64,000 bases of DNA from contig CM073331.1 of the NCBI GenBank assembly GCA_037043015.1, forward strand, positions 1,137,501 through 1,201,500, given 5' to 3'. This document shows positions 6,610 to 60,074 of the stretch, in pieces. This DNA comes from Bryum argenteum. Lineage: Eukaryota > Streptophyta > Bryopsida > Bryales > Bryaceae. The position numbers were made by a program, and so were the translations under genes. Under the pieces are notes generated by a model. The model was not told where the DNA came from. It was given only the letters and a program-made list of their open reading frames with translations, and did not search any database. The stretch's first letter is position 1. Each line of letters begins with the position of its first letter.

Positions 6610-8840
6610 ATGTCAATGAGCAAGAGGGCGAAGATGGCCATATTGAGCAATGGCCACGGAAACGGGACTAATGGCGTGGCCCATCACGAGATTGGTGGTG
6701 ATGACCCGTTGAATTGGGGGCGAGTGGCAGCTGGGATGGGCGGGAGTCACTGGGAGGAGGTGAAGCGGATGGTGGCGGCGTACTTCGAGTGCCGCGAGGT
6801 CGTGCTCGAGGGCGCGGGGTTGAGCGTCGCGCAGGTCGCCGCCATTGCCCGGCGGACTGATCTGAGTGTGGTGCTGGATGCGTGTACTGCTAAGGCGCGC
6901 GTGGACGAGAGCTCGAAATGGGTGCTGTCGTGCGCCATGAACGGCACGGACATTTACGGCGTCACCACAGGTCTGTAATCCCTGGCATTTTTGCAATCGC
7001 GCACTTTATGGTTGGAGGATGGTAATTGACGGGTGGTTGATGAATAGGGTTCGGAGCGACGTCACAGAGGAGAACGACGCAGGGAGTTGAGCTCCAGCAG
7101 GAGCTAATTCGGTTTCTGAATGCCGGCATTGTGGGCAAAGGCGATGGCAATACGCTGTCATCGGCCACGACGCGGGCCGCAATGCTGGTGCGCACGAACA
7201 CGCTGATGCAAGGCTACTCGGGCATCCGGTGGGAGATTCTGGAGGCCATTGGCAAGCTGCTGAATGCGAACGTGACGCCGAAGTTGCCACTGCGGGGCAC
7301 CATCACGGCGTCCGGCGACCTGGTGCCGCTCTCGTACATCGCGGGGTGCCTGACCGGGCGGCCAAACTCACGAGCCTGCACGGCGGAGGGGAAGGAGGTG
7401 ACGTCGGAAGAAGCGCTGCGAATTGCGGGCGTCGGACAGCCATTTCAGCTGGAGCCGAAAGAAGGGCTGGCGCTCGTGAACGGAACAGCGGTCGGGTCGG
7501 GGCTGGCGTCGATGGTGTGCTTCGACGCGAACGTGCTGGTGGTGCTGGCCGAGGTTCTGAGCGCGCTCTTCTGCGAGGTAATGCAGGGAAAGCCAGAATT
7601 CGCTGACCCACTGACGCACAAGCTGAAGCATCACCCGGGGCAGATGGAGGCAGCGGCTGTGATGGAATACATATTAGAGGGGAGCTCGTACATGAAAGCC
7701 GCCGCGAAGCTGCACGCGACAGATCCGTTGCAGAAGCCAAAGCAGGACCGATACGCGCTCCGAACTTCGCCTCAGTGGCTGGGCCCTCACATTGAGAATA
7801 TCCGAAGCGCGACCCACTCAATCGAGCGCGAAATTAACTCCGTGAACGACAACCCGCTGATCGACGTGTCCCGGAACATGGCATTGCACGGGGGAAATTT
7901 TCAAGGGACGCCAATCGGGGTGTCGATGGACAACATGCGGCTGTCGATCGCAGGAATCGGGAAGCTGATGTTTGCGCAATTCAGTGAGCTCGTTAACGAT
8001 TTCTACAACAATGGGCTGCCGTCGAATCTGTGTGGGGGGCCGAACCCGAGTTTGGATTACGGGATGAAGGGGGGCGAGATCGCCATGGCGTCGTACACGT
8101 CGGAGCTCCAGTACCTGGCGAATCCGGTGACGACCCACGTCCAAAGCGCGGAGCAGCACAACCAGGACGTGAATTCGCTAGGCCTAGTGTCGGCGCGGAA
8201 GACAGAGGAGGCTGTGGAGATTCTGAAGCTGATGACGTCGACATATTTGGTGGCGCTCTGCCAGGCAGTGGATCTGCGTCACTTGGAAGAGACGATGCAA
8301 GCGACAGTGAAGAGTGTGGTGGCGCAAGCGGCGAAGAAGACGCTGGTGGTGGGCGTGAACGGGTCGTTGCAGCTAGCGCGGTTCTGCGAGAAGGAGCTGC
8401 TGCAAGTGGTGGAGTACCAGCCCATCTTCACGTACATCGACGACCCATCGAGCACGTCGTACCCGTTGATGCAGAAGCTGCGGCAAGTGCTGGTGGAATT
8501 TGCCCTGAAGCAGAGCGACGAGGGAATTTCGGTGTTTCAGAAGATTCCGGCGTTCGAGGACGAGGTGAAGGCGCAGCTGGTGGCGCAAGTGAGCGCGGCG
8601 AGGCAGAGTTTCGACAAGGGAGTGTCGGTGGTGCCGAATCGGGTGTGGGAATGCCGGTCATTTCCGCTGTACAATTTCGTGCGGGCGGAGCTGGGGACAT
8701 GCTTGCTGACGGGTGAGCGGTCGCAGTCGCCAGGAAGTGACTTCGAGACAGTGTACGACGCGCTATGCGCAGGCAGGCACGTGGGCCCGTTGATGGAAGT
8801 CCTAGAAGGCTGGAGCTGTACCCCTGGCCCTTTCTTGTAG
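6610..8840 (+). CDS. PAL: phenylalanine ammonia-lyase, copy 1
   Basis: Deaminates L-phenylalanine to trans-cinnamate and ammonia, the cytosolic entry step to phenylpropanoids. Exons 6610-6970 and 7048-8840 flank a 77-bp GT-AG intron that splits the Gly codon of GVTTG-FG. Joined, they encode 717 aa, normal for plant PAL. Visible signatures: catalytic Tyr116 in [10 protein letters not shown]; the Ala208-Ser209-Gly210 triad that cyclises to the MIO cofactor, in [11 protein letters not shown]; Phe143-Leu144 in IRFLNAG, the pair typical of PAL (tyrosine-using forms have His); and [10 protein letters not shown]. The usual ATSHRRT loop reads ATSQRRT (Gln127). The start at 6610 aligns with copy 2 ([10 protein letters not shown] against [10 protein letters not shown]). 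The exon-2 proteins of the two copies differ at about 32 of 569 residues by eye count. The CDS is far more GC-rich than its flanks. The frames antisense to it are shadows. Confidence 0.97.
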
Positions 8841-20051: not shown

Positions 20052-22380
20052 TTACGAAAAGGGGCCAGGAGCACAGCTCCAGCCTTCGAGCACCTCCATC
20101 AACGGACCCACATGCCTGCCCGCGCAGAGCGCGTCGTACACTGTCTCGAAGTCACTCCCTGGCGACTGCGATCTCTCGCCCGTCAACAAGCACGTCCCGA
20201 GCTCCGTCCGGACGAAGTTGTAGAGCGGGAACGACCGACAATCCCTCACCCGATTCGGCACCGCCGACACTCCCTTGTCGAAGCTCTGTCTCGCCGCGGT
20301 CACTTGCGTCACCAGCTGCGCCTTCACCTCCTCCTCGAACGCCGGGATCTTCTGAAACACCGACACTCCCTCGTCTCTCTGCTTGAGAGCAAACTCCACC
20401 AGCACTTGCCGCAGCTTCTGCATCAACGGGTACGAGGTGCTCGATGGGTCGTCGATGTACGTGAAGATCGGCTGATGCTCCACCACTTGCAGCAGCTCCT
20501 TCTCACAGAATCGTGTGAGTTGTAAGGAGCCGTTCACGCCCACGACGAGCGTTTTCTTCGCCGCTTGCGCCACCACAGTCTTCACTGCCGCTTGCATCGT
20601 CTCTTCCAGGTGACGTAGATCCACTGCCTGGCAGAGCGCGACGAGGTATGTGGATGTCATCAGCTTGAGTATCTCGACCGCCTCCTCTGTCTTCCGAGCT
20701 GAGATCAGGCCGAGTGAGTTCACGTCCTGGTTGTGCTGCTCCGCGCTTTGGACGTGGGTGGTGACTGGGTTTGCGAGGTACTGAAGCTCCGAGGTGTAGG
20801 ACGCCATGGCGATCTCGCCTCCCTTCATCCCGTAGTCGAGGCTTGGGTTCGGTCCCCCGCAGAGGTTTGATGGTAGTCCGTTGTTGTAGAAATCGTTCAC
20901 GAGCTCACTGAATTGCGCGAACATGAGTTTTCCGATTGCTGCAATTGATAATCGCATGTTGTCCATCGACACCCCGATCGGTGTCCCTTGGAAGTTTCCC
21001 CCGTGGAGCGCTATGTTTCGGGCCACGTCGATGAGCGGGTTGTCGTTCACGGAGTTGATCTCGCGTTCGATTGAGTGAGTTGCAGTTCGGATTGTCTCGA
21101 TGTGGGGGCCTAGCCACTGCGGGGAGGTTCGGAGCGCGTAACGGTCCTGCTTTGGTTTTAGCAGTGGATCTGTCGCGTGCAGCTTCGCGGCGGCTTTCAT
21201 GTACGAGCTTCCGTCGAGAATGTATTCCATTACTGCTGCGGCCTCCATCTGCCCCGGGTGATGCTTCAGCTTGTGAGTTAGTGGGTCGGCGAATTCCGGT
21301 TTGCCTTGCATTACCTCGCAGAAAAGCGCGCTCAGAACCTCGGCTAGCACTACGAGAATGTTGGCGTCGAAGCAGACCGTGGAGGCTAGGCCGGAACCTA
21401 CCGCGGTTCCGTTCACGAGCGCGAGGCCTTCCTTGGGCTCCAGCTGGAATGGCTTCCCGACGCCCGCAATTCGCAGCGCCTCAAGAGATGTTACCTCCTT
21501 CCCCTCAGCTGTGCAAGCTCGTGAGTTCGGCCGCCCGGTCAGACACCCCGCGATGTACGAGAGGGGAACCAGGTCGCCGGACGCCGTGACCGTGCCACGA
21601 AGTGGCAGCTTCGGCGTCACATTCGCGTTGAGTAGCTTGCTCATGGCCTCCAGAATCTCCCACCGAATGCCCGAGTAGCCTTGCAGGAGCGTGTTCGTGC
21701 GCACCAGCATCGCCGCTCGCGTTGTGGCCGAGGGAAGCGTATTGCCATCGCCTTTACCCACAATGCCGGCATTCAGAAACCGGATCAGCTCACGCTGCAG
21801 CTCCGCTCCCTGATTCGTCCTCCTGTGCGACGTCGCTCCGAACCCTACTCATCAACCACCCATCAATCACCGTCCTCCGATCACCCCAGCTCCAAAAACT
21901 CACAACACTCAAAAAATGCTCCCACTTAAAAAATAACATACCTGTGGTGACGCCGTAAGTGTCCGTGCCCTTCAGGGCGCACGACAGCACCCAGTTGGAG
22001 CTTTCGTCCACGCGCGCCTTAGCAATGCACGCATCGAGCGCCACACTCACATCAGTTCGCCGGGCAATGGCGGCAACGTGCGCCACGCTCAACCCAGCGC
22101 CCTCGAGCATGACCTCGCGGCAGTCGAAGTACGCAGTCACCATCCGCTTCACCTCCTCCCAGTGACTCCCACCCATCCCAGCTGCCACTCGCCCCCAATT
22201 CAACGGATCGTCACCACCAATCTCATACTCTTCTATCTCCGGAAACGCAACGACGCCATTGCCATTGCCATTAAGCCCCCCACCATTCGTCACGTGACCA
22301 CCATTCTTCTGGCTCAAAATCACCCCCACCGTGTCGGCGTCCAATGTCGCTGCCATCTTCGCCCTCTTGTTCATCAACAT
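20052..22380 (-). CDS. PAL: phenylalanine ammonia-lyase, copy 2
   Basis: Same reaction as copy 1. Exons 21942-22380 and 20052-21844, with a 97-bp GT-AG intron at exactly the same place (the Gly of VTTG-FG). Joined, they give 743 aa. The second exon has the same length as in copy 1 (1793 bp), so there is no net indel there. The extra 26 residues lie in the N-terminal region, around [10 protein letters not shown] and a Gly/Asn-rich run. Signatures: Tyr142 in [10 protein letters not shown], canonical ATSHRRT (His153), Phe169-Leu170, and the MIO triad at 234-236. I chose ATG at 22380 because it aligns with the copy 1 start; an upstream in-frame TTG is not a likely start. A TATA-like CTATTAAAA lies on this strand near 22775-22783. 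The gene faces copy 1 in a convergent arrangement. Confidence 0.97.
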
Positions 22381-28678: not shown

Positions 28679-31600
28679 TTATTCTCCCCATGCCAGAGTG
28701 ATAGTATGCAAAGGATGCCATTGCCTAAGAATTGCAACAGTGACAGTATGATTCGCCATTCCGAATGCCTGCGAGGAACTGTACACGTGAAGCTTCCGCT
28801 CCTTCACATCATGCTCTATTCGTCCTCCACCCAGCTGGGATACCTGTCGTGCAATTCCATTCGTTGAAAAGATTCAATTCAAAACATTAAACATTCTCAG
28901 TCATTCATTCATTGATACTATCTGCAATCCCATTCTAATGCAGCTTTTCGATCATTTCTTTACCAATGCTACAATTGCATTTTGTTACTATGAATGGGTA
29001 AGCTATCCTTGATTCGAAAACATTGATACTATCTGCAATCTCAATCTATCGATCATTTCTTTACCAATGCTACAATTGCATTTTATTACTGTAAATGGGT
29101 AAGTTCTCCTTGATTCGAGAACATTCTATAAACTAGAAAGTCGTTATGAATTGTTTCGAGAAAGTCTCAAGAGTTCCGAATCTTCATTCTCTAATGATAG
29201 AGTCTCAACTTAATTGCGAAATCCAACTCTCACCTGGAGGCCCAGATCCTTGACTTCATCCTCAGTTGCCTTCAGGATATCGGAATGGTAAGCGAGCTTT
29301 GAGTTGCCTCTTACGATCTGTTGAGTACATTCCGATGAGTACATTCTTTCTCAAACGAGAATCAGCCTGAAATTGCTGGGATTGATTGGAAGTATATTAC
29401 AGAGAATCAAACTAGGGAGCTAAGTACCTGTGAAAGCAAATCACAACCAAATCAATAAACGGTGACGTGAGTATGCTTACCAACTTCTCATGACCCTTGT
29501 CATCACTGAGACTCATCAATACGTACTTGAAAACACCTGCACAGGCGTTTAATACCATTAATAATAGCATATGCTTGTGATTCTCACATTCCTGTAATCA
29601 ATGCAGCGGAGTGGTTCCCTTCACTATCACGAACCGACATATTGTTTACCATTTGAATCTTTACTATTGATTTACTGATTTACTATCACATATTTAAGTC
29701 CTTCTATATTCCTCTCGAAGAAAAGCATCTCCTCTTGTAACAATCCCGATAGAACCAAATCGCTAACCTAATGGTAATATTCCACAAATGGGGTTTAAAT
29801 TTTATATACAAAAGAGAAGTTACTGATTTCCTATTACATATTTAAGTCCTTCTATATTCCTCTCGAAGAAAAGCATCTCCTATTGTAACAATCCTGGTAG
29901 AACCAAACAGCTCACTGGAACTAACCTCATGGTAATATTCCACAAAAAAAAGCACTTTTATTTAGGTTTAAAAGTTTGAAGTCAAAAGAAGAGGTGATAT
30001 TACAAGGCTAGTGAAGCAATGAGTGCTCCATAACAAAATAGCTTCACTCTTGAAGCATAATCACTCAAATGGAACTTTGTGACAAACTAATCAAAATGGA
30101 ACTTCATGTCATTTAACCGGTATTGCCCAGGAAGTGCAAGTTTACTACAAGCCTCTTTTCTATGTAATCCTCTGATTTTGCTTGATCAATTGATTCAAGA
30201 AGCATCAACGAATGCAACTCTTTTCATGACTAATAGTCAGATTCTGTGAGAAATTCATTATTTATGCTCAATTTTGTTGAATGAAAAGCAATGAGTTAAT
30301 CTTTACCTTCATCGATCTGAGCAGATCTGACGTCGTTACCAGGCCACGAAGAGTCGTCGTCGGATTCAGTCTCGGCCCATCGAGTGAGGAGGATGTTGGC
30401 AATCGCATAACCTCCCGGGATACTAAATTCGATGCCGTGTGGTAAGGAGTTCCCTTTCAGAATCCACCGCAGCAAATCCTTGTGCACCCATCTTGCGTCC
30501 TACACCTCAAAATCAAACATATCGTGACAATCAAAACAAACCAACAATAGAAACTGATCACTGCATGCACTGAATGAGGTTCTTTAGACGATGTTAAAAA
30601 GAACTTTCCCTCTTAGATGGTAAAATGAAGCATTACGGAACAGGGAGCAAAGTCAATCTATGTTTTAAAATTTTCGATTAAGATGACATAAAATTGTGTT
30701 ACGAACCATCTTTTATGAAATCCTCCCCATGAATCATGCAACACGCTCTTTCATGATGTTTGGGAGCTCATTGAACAATCAATTATCAATCTGTTAAAGG
30801 TGGAATGAGTCTGATGTAAGCATGGAAAAGAAACAACGGTTTGGTTCAATACCTCAAGATCAATTTCGTTACCATGATATAAAAAAAGAGGCTTGTGTAT
30901 GACCACTGCCACTATGAGTCTGACGACCATTAAAATGAGACTAGTCTGAATAAACAAAAGAGTTATTATTTGGATACTTACCTCGAGTTCAAGTTCGTCA
31001 GCAGAGGTCTGAGGTAATGCACGGGCTTCATCCACCACAGTGAGTTGCTTCGGATCAACAGCCACAGCATTGTCATTCTCCGAATTGGCATTGTAAGGCT
31101 CACAGGCATTTTTCACCGCCGAAGCGCTGAAGCCCACCATTAGCGACGACGGAAATGGCCAAGGCTGGCTTGCTGTGTAGCTGATCTCAAAAAACAACCC
31201 AAAGAAGGATTCAGAAGTGATGAAGATTTCCAAATGCATAAAAACAGGCCAATGAATTATCATGTGCAGATTGATCAGGAAAAGCCATTACAAGGAACAG
31301 ACCACTATTAGAGTGAACAAATATGGGACTATAGTTTGTAATAAGGACAATGGCTCTACTCGGAAACGCAACCTGGCATATATGAATAAACGATGCCTTT
31401 AAAAGCAAAGCCCAAACCATTTCTTAAGAGCAACAAACTCCACGACCATTTTTAGGGTTTCGAAAATGGCACCTCACACTCGTTTGGTCGATGTCGATGC
31501 CAGATTCTTCTTTCACTTCTCTGGCAACAGCCATTTCGAATGTTTCGCCAATCTCCACAAAGCCTGCCAATAAGGAGTATCGACCGGGGTTCCATCTACT

Positions 31601-33546
31601 CTGCGAACATGCGAGCAGATGTGATCTTATCATCAACACAACTTCATACACTCTTACACTATTTCGTTTTAGTTAAAAAGGAAAAGATCATAATCTCTTT
31701 GGTATCACAACATAAAGCATTTGTAATGAATTGAAACCAGATTGTAGAAAATTGCTCCTCACCTGTCGTCCGAGGAGAACATAATCGCCGCACGCTACCA
31801 GCATAATGACAGCAGGATCCTGTAAACACGATACGATACAGAAACCTTGAAATTTGTTTAACATGGGTTCTTATAGTAACTAACCACCATTCAAGTCATA
31901 AGTGCCCAATCTGCACAAGACCCAAAGCCGAGTAATAGGGTTCGTTGTATTATGATCTTTTGATACTTGAAAGGTTCCAAAAAGCACTGTACGATGTAGA
32001 TGAGTATATTGAACTGTCTAGTACAGATAGCTTCGTCTTCCTAGTTTCAGAAAATTCTTAGTTAAAAAAGATCTAACGTTATGATATACTCAAGAACATG
32101 TTGATCATGGAGATATATACCAGTCTGGGATATGCAGAATTTCTACACGAGTCCGAAGAGCAGTGCAACGAGTGACCACCATCTTTAGCAACCATCCGTT
32201 GACCACACCCTCCACAAAACTTCTGCAAAATCAACAAGAATAAGCACTTTATTCATCAACAAAACACCGAGGTATATACTCAATCAACTGACCAAAAGCA
32301 GCATTATAAGAAAAAGAGAAGGGAAGAAGGTGCACTTTACATTGCGAGATTGCCATTCCACCATTCCTCGAGCATACGCCAACAAGCCTGCATCACTGGG
32401 CTGAAGCTGCGGACCATACCTTCGCACATCCACCCATTCGCCACCTTCTTCCCAGGCCGGTCTTTCATCTCCTCCCCCTGCACTGCTACAACGGGCTTGG
32501 CTCCATAAGCATATCCCTATTCACAAAAAAAAGGGAAAGAGAATCGCAAGTAAGAGTACCTGGACGTGTTCTGTAAGTTCACAGCGAACACTGGCGCGTT
32601 CGTGGAGTTCGACAAGCCTAAAAAGACTGGATAGCCAGCAGTTGCATGATCTGCATGATGATCCTTTAATTGTAGAGCTGATGCTGCTACGAGTACCGGC
32701 TTCCCTTCTTTCACGAGGTTTTTGGCTTCGATTAATGGAATCACCTGTTGGCGAACAGCAACTGATCAAGTGGACAAGACTCAAAAATGCATTCAAGGAA
32801 AGAGAATGTCGATGTTTCAATGACGAAAAGTCCCATAGAAAGCTCGTATCTCTCATCACTAAGCTCGTGTTTACTTTTGAGTAAGCTAAATAGGTAGATT
32901 GTATTGTTAAGATTACAACCTATTAGCGAAAGAAACTGATCTTGTAATTCATATGTCTTGAAGCTGTTAGTTTATGAAGCATCTCTTGCAGAAATCCCCT
33001 CATCGAAGCTGTTTAAGGTCCATGATTTTGTAGGTTCTTCGTTTAATTCTAGTTTCCAACAAAAGCAATGCTCCTCACTAAAAAGGGATATTCACCGTAG
33101 ATACAAGAATCATACCAGAGCTTCTGGACTGAGGAAAGCATCGGAGAGCTTGGCTTTATCCACCCTCATCTCCGCCGCTCGCTTGAGTCCAGCATCTGAG
33201 AAGAAAATCGCCTGCTGCATTGCCACCATTTCTTGTAAATCCATAAATAATTCCCTTCTCGACATCGCAACGATGAATTTTGAAATTGTTTAATCACCTA
33301 CATTCTACTGACAAAAGTATAATTGTGAATGTTATGATAAATGAAAGGTTAAATGAGATCTGAAAAACACCAAGCTCTGGAGATTGAGACCATCAAAGTG
33401 TGAAAGGCTTCATCCATGTACCACTTTTTTACTTTTAACGAAGATAACGTTATATCGAAATCGGTGGAAAAAGAGGAGCAATGAGCATGGGAACATACTG
33501 AAGAAGAATTCGACTCCTGGAGGATCTTTGTTGAAGAAGAAGCCAT
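28679..33546 (-). CDS. Nudix hydrolase (NUDT19-like) fused to a Janus/PHPT1 phosphohistidine phosphatase domain
   Basis: Twelve exons join in frame to 486 aa: 33499-33546, 33116-33214, 32560-32744, 32341-32485, 32121-32222, 31763-31819, 31473-31600, 30982-31180, 30307-30499, 29481-29536, 29234-29317, 28679-28843. Residues 1-385 match plant NUDT19/NADH pyrophosphatases: [14 protein letters not shown], a zinc ribbon (Cys162, 165, 180, 185), [12 protein letters not shown], a perfect Nudix box at 225-247 (REVKEESGI), then [11 protein letters not shown] at 259. These enzymes cleave NADH-type dinucleotides to mononucleotides. Residues 386-486 are a whole Janus/PHPT1 domain: [24 protein letters not shown] with the expected catalytic His443, and [11 protein letters not shown]. 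The joining codon (G|GT) is split by a phase-1 intron. The start gives MASSSTKI before a phase-0 donor. Exon 4 may instead begin at 32482. There is no C-terminal peroxisome signal; localisation is unclear. Confidence 0.88.
28910..29130. repeat. 111-bp tandem duplication inside an intron
   Basis: CATTGATACTATCTGCAAT begins units at 28910 and 29021. Both carry TTTACCAATGCTACAATTGC. It lies in the last intron of the Nudix-Janus gene. Confidence 0.8.
29676..29947. repeat. 148-bp tandem duplication inside an intron
   Basis: CATATTTAAGTCCTTCTATA occurs at 29689 and 29837 within near-identical blocks ending ATGGTAATATTCCACAAA. It lies in the 770-bp intron that separates the Nudix and Janus coding parts. 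Confidence 0.8.
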
Positions 33547-34841
33547 TATGGTGACATGCCGAGAGCTCTTCCATCTCCTCACAGGTATACAATCACCTGT
33601 AAAAAAGTAGGAAAAATGCGGCGTAGTCAGATTCCATCTAGTCAGGAAGAACAACGTATCCTCTACAATTTGTCAATTACAAACTCCGATGAAAGATCTC
33701 TGTTATTACAGCAGTAAGAATCGCTAATTCCAATCCATTCATGAAGAGATCGAAAGAACGAGAATAGATTGATGATTCAATTGCAGCAATGGCTTCTGTA
33801 GGTAAGAACCGATACTCAGCTATGGACGAAGATTCGGCTGCTGTGCTGATATGAATTCAAATGCGCAACAAAGAGAAAGGGGGAAATGAGTATTTCGTTC
33901 GGGTAATGCAGCAAGAATTTGAGCTGGGAGGAGGGATTTGTGACCTAATTTGGAGGGCGAAGCTTGTTTTCCTAACAATGAACTGGAGAGGAGGGGCAAA
34001 TGCTGCTGCCACCCACGAGCAGCTGAGACATGGGCGAACGCTCTCACGCACATTTTCGCCCCCCGATTCAAACACCTGCCAAATTGCCAATGAAGCTCCT
34101 CAGCATTCTAGCCACAATGTCTCCACATTCATCTAATCGCAAGACAATTACCACTCACGCGCTTCGATAGCTGAGCTTCCGGAGTAGGAACAGTACATTC
34201 TTACGACTGCATCAGATTATGCGAGAATAATATGCTTGTCTGTCCATCGATACGACGAGTCTCATCCTTGTTCGCACAACCCTAATCGACTTTGTAGTTG
34301 TTGGTGATTGTGAGCCTTGGAACGATTGATTTGCAGTTGTAGGTTTTGGAGTTTGCAACCATTTTTGAGTTGGGGACTTCGACGTTTGCAACAATCGAAT
34401 TACATTCTTCTTCTCTTGCGTAACCCTAATCGACTTTTAGTAGCTCGGGGACTTTGACGATCTCTGAGGTTTGCAACGATCGAGCTACATCCTTCCTCTC
34501 TCGCATGACCCTAATCGACTTTCAGTAGGTGGAGACTCTGAAGTTTGCAGGTCAGGGTTTTGTAGATTGCAACGATTTTTGAGTTGGGGACTCTAAAGAA
34601 GGCAACGATCAGACTACATCTCCTTCTCTTGCACAGCCCTAAGTAGTTGGTGACTTTGAGGTTTGCAGACCATCGATTTGCAGTCGTGGGTTTTTGTAGA
34701 CCGCAACGTGTTTAGAGTCGGGGAGGTTGAAATTTGCAGTTATCAAATCACATTCCTTCTTCTCTCGCACAATCCTACTCGCTTCCTAGATGTAAATTCT
34801 AAACGATCGCGTTCTAGTTGTTAATTCCTACCGATTTTCCA
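33547..34841. promoter_or_regulatory. divergent intergenic region between the Nudix-Janus and MYND genes
   Basis: About 1.3 kb between the two start codons, so it must hold both promoters. No convincing TATA box seen. The half nearer the MYND gene is made of diverged repeats (see 34270-34790). Confidence 0.5.
34270..34790 (+). repeat. diverged tandem repeats in the MYND gene leader
   Basis: The word CCCTAATCGACTTT or variants recurs at 34280, 34424, 34509, 34637 and 34772, each preceded by TCTCTTGCG/TCTCTCGCA-like sequence. Between them are GTTTGCAACGAT and TTTTTGAGTTGGGGACT words. Spacing is irregular, 85-144 bp. Confidence 0.7.
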
Positions 34842-35372
34842 ATGGAGGAGTTCGACAAGTTCCGGGAGCTGAGTGACAAGAACCTCGAGAAACTTCAATC
34901 AATGGCAACAGCAAACCCTAATCTCCAGAAACACCTACAGATGTACAATCAAATTTCAGGAAGATCACTCTCAGAGTCAGCTCGAAAGGCGCAAGAAGAG
35001 AATGACAAGCGATGGGACAAGCTGGAGGCCGATCTCGGGCAATCCCAGCAAACCATGGGCGCATTCAGTGAAGCGATCTTACAATACGGATTCAAGCTTC
35101 CGAAGCCAGTTCCGGATGAAGAGCTCAACAAGGAAGGCGACTTCGCGGCGTTTATGAACACGTATGGCTCCCAAGGAATGGACATTCTTAGTGATTTTAC
35201 TGAGAAAAAGGAAGCTTCGGAGGCTCAGAAGCCCAAGTGCGAGGAATGTAGAAGTGATGCGGGTATGAAATGTACGCAATGTGGACAGCATTACTGCTCC
35301 CCGGAGTGTCAGAAGAAGGCTTGGCCCTATCACAAGAAAGTCTGCAAGCTTTTTGCTTCACGAGGATTTTGA
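34842..35372 (+). CDS. MYND-type zinc-finger protein
   Basis: A single uninterrupted frame of 176 aa. The first about 125 residues are charged and probably helical (KNLEKLQSMATANPNLQKHL; EENDKRWDKLEADL). The C-terminus is a complete MYND finger: Cys133, 136, 144, 147, 152, 156, His164, Cys168, in the spacing C-x2-C-x7-C-x2-C-x4-C-x3-C-x7-H-x3-C. MYND fingers bind proline-rich peptides in partner proteins, so an adaptor role is plausible. The partner is unknown and no enzymatic (SET) domain is present. ATG 34842 is the first ATG of the frame; an upstream in-frame TTG is discounted. The gene is divergent from the Nudix-Janus gene. 3-prime UTR introns cannot be excluded. Confidence 0.88.
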   Translation: MEEFDKFRELSDKNLEKLQSMATANPNLQKHLQMYNQISGRSLSESARKAQEENDKRWDKLEADLGQSQQTMGAFSEAILQYGFKLPKPVPDEELNKEGDFAAFMNTYGSQGMDILSDFTEKKEASEAQKPKCEECRSDAGMKCTQCGQHYCSPECQKKAWPYHKKVCKLFASRGF

Positions 35373-54264: not shown

Positions 54265-54930
54265 CGTGAAATTGTCCCTCTCTTTAGGCTCCACTCGTCT
54301 CGTTGACGATAATATCCCCCATTGCCCTCGTCTCGTCAAGAATAATGTCTTGGTTTGCCCTCTTCTCGTCGGGGACAATTTCCCGCATTGCCTTTGTCTA
54401 ATCGAGGATGATTTCCCGGTTTGCCCTCATCTCGTCGGAGGCGTTGCCCTAATCTCATTGAGGATGATTTTCCGGTTTGCCCTCGTCTCGTCGGAGGCGT
54501 TGCCCTAATCTCATTGAGGATGATTTTCCGGTTTGCCCTCGTCTCGTCGGAGGCGTTGCCCTAATCTCATTGAGGATGATTTTCCGGTTGCCCTTGTCTC
54601 AATGAGGATGATTTCCCACACTGCCCTCACCTCGTCGAAGATAATTTCCCACGCTCTCCTCTTGTCGAGGACAATTTCTCGATTTGCCCTCGTCTCCTAG
54701 AGGATGATTTCTCGGTTTGCCCTCATCTCCTAGAGGATGATTTCTCGGTTTGCCCTCGTCTCGTCGAGGATGCTTTCCCACGCTGCCCTCATCTCGTTGA
54801 GGATGCTTTCCCACGTAGCCCTCATCTCGTCGAGGATGATTTCGCTCAACACCCTCGTCTTGTCAAAGATGATATCCCGCATCACCCTCATATCGTCGAG
54901 GATGATTTCGCTCGTCGCACGCGATTGTCC
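54265..54930. repeat. 33-bp minisatellite with a 56-bp higher-order unit
   Basis: The basic unit reads GATGATTTCCCGGTTTGCCC then TCGTCTCGTCGAG, 33 bp and so a whole number of codons. Around 54415-54585 a 56-bp compound (33 bp plus GGCGTTGCCCTAATCTCATT) repeats about three times. The periodicity yields repetitive frames on both strands (for example DEGKPRNHPLG), most likely artefacts. Confidence 0.85.
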
Positions 54931-58950: not shown

Positions 58951-59495
58951 TAACCATCACTCGAAAAGTGTGATATTTCCACCACGTTGAATGAGTCATT
59001 CCATGAGGATTTCTACCAAATTATGTGCACTTATGGTGAAAGTACCACACTTTTCCACTACACTATTTATATGATATTTAGTGTTGCTACACTATATAAT
59101 TGTGATTCGCTATAACTGTTTATTTCAATAACCATCACTCAAAAAGTGTGATATTTCCACCGAATTGAATGAGTCATTCTATGAATGTTTCTACCAAATT
59201 CTGTGCAATAAGACATTCTTGTTGAAAGTACCACACTTTTCCACTACACTATTTATATGATATTTAGTGTTGCTACACTATATAATTGTGATTCGCTATA
59301 ACTGTTTATTTCAATAACCATCACTCAAAAAGTGTGATATTTCCACCGAATTGAATGAGTCATTCTATGAATGTTTCTACCAAATTCTGTGCAATAAGAC
59401 ATTCTTGTTGAAAGTACCACACTTTTCCACTACACTATTTATATGATATTTAGTGTTGCTACACTATATAATTGTGATTTGCTATAACTCTTTAT
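58951..59495 (+). repeat. three-copy tandem array, about 178-186 bp unit
   Basis: Units start at 58951, 59129 and 59315, each beginning TAACCATCACTC. Copies 2 and 3 are nearly identical and copy 1 is more diverged. Each unit contains AAAAGTGTGATATTTCC and, inverted, ACCACACTTTTCC. Confidence 0.9.
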
Positions 59496-60074
59496 TTATG
59501 ATGAATTCTTTGAATGAGCAAACAAATGCTTACTTCTTAGGAAACATACGAGTTCATTTATTTCTATCATGAAAACGTCACAACAATTATGTATGATTTA
59601 GTGTGGGTATCAACAAACATCATCTTCAGTGTGGTGAACACAATGAAGAAAGCATACATAATAATGTTTGGAGCATGAAGTGAGTGAAAGAAGGAAAGCT
59701 TTTTGTTAATCATATAAGAGCATCCGTACGGAGCACTTGTGTTTTCTCGCCCCAATGTAACTACCAAGACTCACGCAATTTTCCCGCCTCACGCCAACCA
59801 TCTCCCTGTCTTGTTAAATTCACCTTACTTACTATGAGTTCTCGCTTTCCATATAGCAGCAAGACGACAAGCCCTTGTTTGTCCTCTCACGGGTGAAAAC
59901 CTTCGCTTTCTTGAACATCTCTCTTGGTAATTAAATTGAAATTCGCAAAATCCATCGCTTACAGCCCGACTCTCTCGCCATTTACATGCAGCGTTGAGGA
60001 GAATTCCCGTAAACGACTTTCCTGTCACCTCGAGGAAAGCTCACACCAACTTCTCCGTACGCACTTTGCGGGCA
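59496..60074. other. intergenic, no gene seen
   Basis: The start of a possible GAGCAT element (AAGAGCATCCGTACGGAG) lies near 59697, but no matching right end was found. Confidence 0.3.

Follow-up and report, generated by a model that had tools for sequence, protein, structure and literature searches.

The window, 64,000 nucleotides of Bryum argenteum DNA, carries on its minus strand a gene (33574..28679) whose predicted protein joins a Nudix hydrolase of the NUDX19 type to a C-terminal Ocnus (Janus/PHPT1) domain. Elsewhere in the window, two stop-to-stop frames of 598 amino acids each, at 7044–8837 (+) and 20055–21848 (−), match the aromatic amino acid lyase family (PF00221; 452.7 and 455.3 bits, respectively). 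They face each other about 11 kb apart and are likely to be an inverted pair of phenylalanine ammonia-lyase genes. The Pfam scan of the window took in 10 of its 60 frames of at least 110 amino acids, and seven of these ten had no match. A MYND zinc finger (PF01753; 31.5 bits) is encoded by an open frame on the opposite strand at 34818–35369 (+), which starts some 1.2 kb upstream of the fusion gene and may have a promoter region in common with it. Repeats occur as a tandem array (54294–54913) whose periods of 33, 56, 66 and 99 bases overlap and whose part from 54580 onward belongs to an open frame containing LVEDDFSVCPHL-like units, and as three copies of a 186-base unit with 94% matches (58951–59497).

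Gene model and splicing

Read from the sequence, a 12-exon model yields a 488-residue protein in one frame with a lone terminal stop, and all of the introns are GT–AG. This bears out the initial annotation, which had twelve exons running in one frame from the Nudix region into a full Janus/Ocnus domain; the Ocnus match is near-complete (profile positions 3–105 of 108). Exon 1 (33499..33574) opens with an ATG at 33574 and ends at a GTATGT donor, and exon 2 (33116..33195), placed by its frame and splice sites, encodes the N-terminal part ahead of the NUDIX-like domain (PF09296), which is divided between exon 3 (32560..32744) and exon 4 (32341..32482). Exon 5 (32121..32222) encodes a zinc ribbon (PF09297) with Cys164, Cys167, Cys182 and Cys187. 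The NUDIX domain (PF00293) begins in exon 6 (31763..31819); by pattern match, the Nudix motif GX5EX7REUXEEXGU starts at residue 227 in exon 7 (31473..31600) and SQPWPFPSS at residue 261 in exon 8 (30982..31180), both intact. Exon 9 (30307..30499) encodes the Nudix C-terminal region, a linker and the nine residues with which the Ocnus profile match opens. The rest of the Ocnus domain is encoded by exon 10 (29481..29536), which starts inside codon 388, exon 11 (29234..29317) and exon 12 (28679..28843), which ends in the stop codon.

The 5′ end is uncertain. The initial annotation had started the gene at 33546; among exon 2 acceptors tried from 33290 to 33151, four keep the frame with that start (33214 and 33211 among them) and four with 33574 (33195 among them), so that neither start is rejected. 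Rival acceptors also include 33231, and upstream of exon 2 its frame is likewise open, with ATGs of its own. Introns 9 and 11 each contain an internal direct duplication (29672–29946 and 28910–29125; 96 nt and 77 nt, respectively, both at 92% identity), with a shorter pair beside each.

Domains of the predicted protein

We scanned the 488-residue protein with Pfam hmmscan under curated cut-offs, and four domains scored above them: NUDIX-like (residues 62–157, 49.8 bits), the NADH pyrophosphatase zinc ribbon (159–186, 30.5 bits), NUDIX (197–303, 48.3 bits) and Ocnus (PF05005; 379–478, 101.2 bits, E = 4.3e-29). MoCoBD_2 and AAA_30 were also listed, both under their cut-offs. Among solved structures in the PDB, the best matches of the Nudix half are NUDT12 (E = 2.9e-37) and NudC-type NADH pyrophosphatases, and the C-terminal part matches the human 14-kDa phosphohistidine phosphatase PHPT1 (E = 2.1e-13). 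Taken as predictions, these domain matches within one open frame are far above chance.

A probable single protein across the seam

The two halves meet at intron 9 (29537..30306), a phase-1 GT–AG intron of 770 bases that separates 30307 from 29536 exactly as the initial annotation had placed it and is the longest among the eleven introns of the gene. Its length, together with an in-frame ATG ahead of exon 10, might point to two adjacent genes joined in error. Exon 9, however, runs on past the Nudix region without a stop codon, the Ocnus match already begins in that exon, and other green plants have the same published fusion (PMC5118724). We rejected separate genes as the main reading on the Ocnus profile edge in exon 9 and regard such an error as very improbable. 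The domain that had been described from the seam onward is present near-complete, with its profile match starting nine residues further upstream, in the exon shared with the Nudix C terminus. With the residues from exon 9 included, Ocnus scores 105.2 bits, compared with 97.8 bits when they are omitted and 99.0 bits when a start in intron 9 is used instead; because the score is highest with these residues (some 6 bits above that of the intron start), the tail of exon 9 looks like the native edge of the Ocnus domain, albeit by a modest margin.

Shorter transcripts could also exist beside the fused one: a Nudix-only form ending in intron 9 (QIDEGKD, then stop), an Ocnus-only form initiated at an intron-9 ATG, or both. 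Retention of intron 9 would bring a stop two codons past the seam codon, and the intron contains AATAAA at 29962 and TATAAA at 29806. The reading frame of exon 10 extends without a stop into the 3′ end of the intron and includes ATGs there, which makes an Ocnus-only transcript conceivable; the absence of a start between the domains, as initially reported, thus holds for the spliced reading and not for the end of the intron. An intron-9 start, however, would drop the nine Ocnus-matching residues that exon 9 supplies, and such hexamers arise readily by chance in an A+T-rich intron. We consider additional short transcripts rather unlikely, and the in-frame fusion of Nudix and Ocnus is well supported by the predicted gene structure.

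The predicted Ocnus active site

In human PHPT1, His53 is the general base (PMC11277029), and the residues reported to contribute to activity are Lys21, His53, Ala54, Arg78, Ser94 and Ala96, with Glu51, Tyr52, His53, Tyr93 and Met95 listed for substrate binding, such that His53 appears in both lists (PMC4817053). Over 99 aligned residues, 35 are identical to the human protein. Five of the six activity residues in the lists available from that paper are identical: Lys391 (human Lys21) in exon 10, the likely catalytic His417 (human His53) in exon 11, and Arg442 (human Arg78), Ser458 and Ala460 in exon 12; the exception is Ala54, replaced by Ser418. Human His102, important in early mutagenesis (PMC11277029), is retained as His466. 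The substrate-binding positions of the same source are less well kept (two of five), with Glu51 replaced by Ala, Tyr93 by Ser and Met95 by Gln. Because three of the five are changed, the comparison suggests that the Ocnus half may have another target than human PHPT1.

This alignment moves the catalytic residue. The initial annotation had assigned the role to the histidine of LGGGRIEH and had named a His443, but the equivalent of human His53 is His417 in LAYHSDI, and the LGGGRIEH histidine, from exon 12, is His445, which aligns with human position 81. The numbering depends on the 5′ end: across eight in-frame 5′ models the LAYHSDI histidine falls at 399–429 and that of LGGGRIEH at 427–457, and with the start at 33546 the latter is residue 442 (acceptor 33214) or 441 (acceptor 33211). 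Most likely, His443 was meant as the LGGGRIEH histidine, within one or two residues.

Genome context

We searched the assembly (258,844,377 bases in 25 contigs) exon by exon, scoring the best candidates. With PF05005 at E values up to 0.001 there was one match, exon 12 of the fusion gene, and 14 well-known control genomes gave none; with the gene's own Ocnus part as query, at E values up to 10, four places were matched, all inside the fusion gene. The fusion gene thus accounts for every Ocnus match that the 258.8-Mb genome yielded, in a search that a diverged Ocnus gene with short exons could escape, because the family search missed even exons 10 and 11 of the fusion gene itself.

With the full protein as query, 14 places were matched, 12 of them in the fusion gene and two on another contig, C2, where they mark a second NUDX19-like locus (L016:2496-6056 (−)). 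Frames at this locus resemble the zinc ribbon (45% identity over 47 residues) and the Nudix core, and a C-terminal one closes with YAIAHHLISTWANQGPPLTQSNI ahead of a stop. No Ocnus domain was found there: the best match of query residues 388–488 within 9.5 kb has an E value of 7.2, which is at chance level. At the same locus, SSQPWP and VGPSSM are about 50 codons apart in one open frame, probably with an intron within the SQPWP motif. At least one NUDX19-like gene of the genome is thus fused to Ocnus, and at least one other is apparently not.

Single-sequence scans, which reach close relatives only and so carry little weight, gave 68 pattern matches for prokaryotic relatives of the Ocnus part and two for the full protein in viral contigs, none of which was confirmed.

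Published architecture

The initial annotation left open whether this architecture had been described. It was published in 2016, in a moss and green algae, and the fusion gene is a further member. The paper on AtNUDX19 (Sci Rep 6:37432; PMC5118724) defines the SQPWP group of Nudix enzymes with subgroups I and II and assigns an extra Ocnus domain, there spelled ‘Oncus’, to the whole of subgroup II apart from the Micromonas enzymes. The bearers include Physcomitrella, Klebsormidium (kfl00032_0450), Chlamydomonas, Volvox and Coccomyxa (PMC5118724). The earlier statement that NUDT19 proteins of plants stop at the end of the Nudix region is true of subgroup I and not of the Ocnus-bearing enzymes of subgroup II.

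Among the species examined in that study, higher plants have subgroup I alone, Coccomyxa and Micromonas have subgroup II alone, and Physcomitrella, Klebsormidium, Chlamydomonas and Volvox have both; the authors propose subgroup II as the ancestral form, which higher plants would have lost (PMC5118724). The presence of a fused and an Ocnus-less locus in one Bryum genome agrees with the species reported to have both. In the text available, the authors relate the Ocnus domain to Drosophila Janus/Ocnus and state that the use of pyridine nucleotides by the wider SQPWP group is still to be shown (PMC5118724); the phrase ‘histidine phosphatase’ has no occurrence in the main text. This was the sole paper to combine ‘nudix’ with ‘ocnus’ or ‘oncus’ in the literature searched, and a search for the biochemistry of an Ocnus-bearing Nudix protein found none, most subscription papers lying beyond the reach of both searches.

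The features of subgroup II are present in the Bryum protein: NUDIX-like, zinc ribbon and NUDIX domains, the Nudix box with SQPWPFPxS, and Ocnus. The predicted gene fits a subgroup II SQPWP enzyme by its Nudix-side domains, its motifs and its Ocnus domain.

Proposed function

We consider it likely that the gene encodes a subgroup II SQPWP Nudix hydrolase of the AtNUDX19/NUDT12/NudC type with a C-terminal Ocnus/PHPT1 domain, one protein with two activities as proposed. By analogy with relatives, a single transcript would carry both halves, and both would be active. The Nudix half would most likely split the pyrophosphate bond of NADPH or NADH by means of its metal-binding Nudix box, scaffolded by the zinc ribbon and a rudimentary N-terminal NUDIX domain, and the Ocnus half would most likely hydrolyse P–N phosphates (phosphohistidine or phospholysine), with His417 acting as general base on water and Lys391 and Arg442 holding the phosphate. 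The bifunctional protein envisaged at the outset thus has its in-frame fusion and two likely active sites, and its dual activity is plausible; we retain a bifunctional enzyme as the best guess because most of the residues linked to catalysis are conserved in each half.

The fusion could also be real and its Ocnus half no protein phosphatase, instead binding a phosphorylated ligand or acting on a small P–N or nucleotide product of NAD(P)H turnover. Three of the five human substrate-binding residues are changed, yet five of the six activity residues are kept (lists from PMC4817053), and a moss and several green algae are reported to have Ocnus joined to a nucleotide hydrolase (PMC5118724), all of which would suit such a role. 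The general base His and the Lys and Arg are nevertheless retained and would be needless in a pure binding domain. We hold this alternative to be improbable, if worth keeping in mind, and prefer the bifunctional enzyme.

Because its C-terminal tripeptide, WGE, is presumably unlike a typical peroxisomal one, the fusion protein probably acts outside the peroxisome and plastid sites of most subgroup I enzymes, perhaps in the cytosol. A bolder and decidedly tentative proposal, which we would not expect to hold, is that the plant's only PHPT1-type phosphatase is tied to an enzyme that consumes NAD(P)H; pyridine nucleotide level and the removal of phosphohistidine or phospholysine from proteins would then be controlled together in seedless green plants, a link that higher plants would have lost with subgroup II. 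The fusion gene joins a published group for which our literature search found no biochemistry, and it raises a useful question: why is the sole PHPT1-type domain found in the genome fused to an NAD(P)H pyrophosphatase?

Comparison with known systems

The closest counterparts are the subgroup II SQPWP enzymes, which share the NUDIX-like domain, the zinc ribbon, the NUDIX domain with SQPWPFPxS and the extra Ocnus domain (PMC5118724); compared by published description rather than by sequence, the Bryum protein shows no difference from them. AtNUDX19, an NADPH pyrophosphohydrolase of subgroup I, shares the three Nudix-side domains, the Nudix box and the SQPWP motif, but lacks the Ocnus domain that the fusion protein has; subgroup I enzymes carry mostly plastid and peroxisome signals (PMC5118724), whereas the fusion protein ends in WGE. 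Human PHPT1 and Drosophila Janus/Ocnus share the family (PF05005) and the catalytic Lys, His and Arg; human PHPT1 is, however, a stand-alone 14-kDa protein, and three of its five listed substrate-binding residues differ in the fusion protein. The NADH pyrophosphatases NUDT12 and NudC, which presumably lack an Ocnus domain, are the top solved-structure matches of the Nudix half, and the stretches matched are confined to that half.
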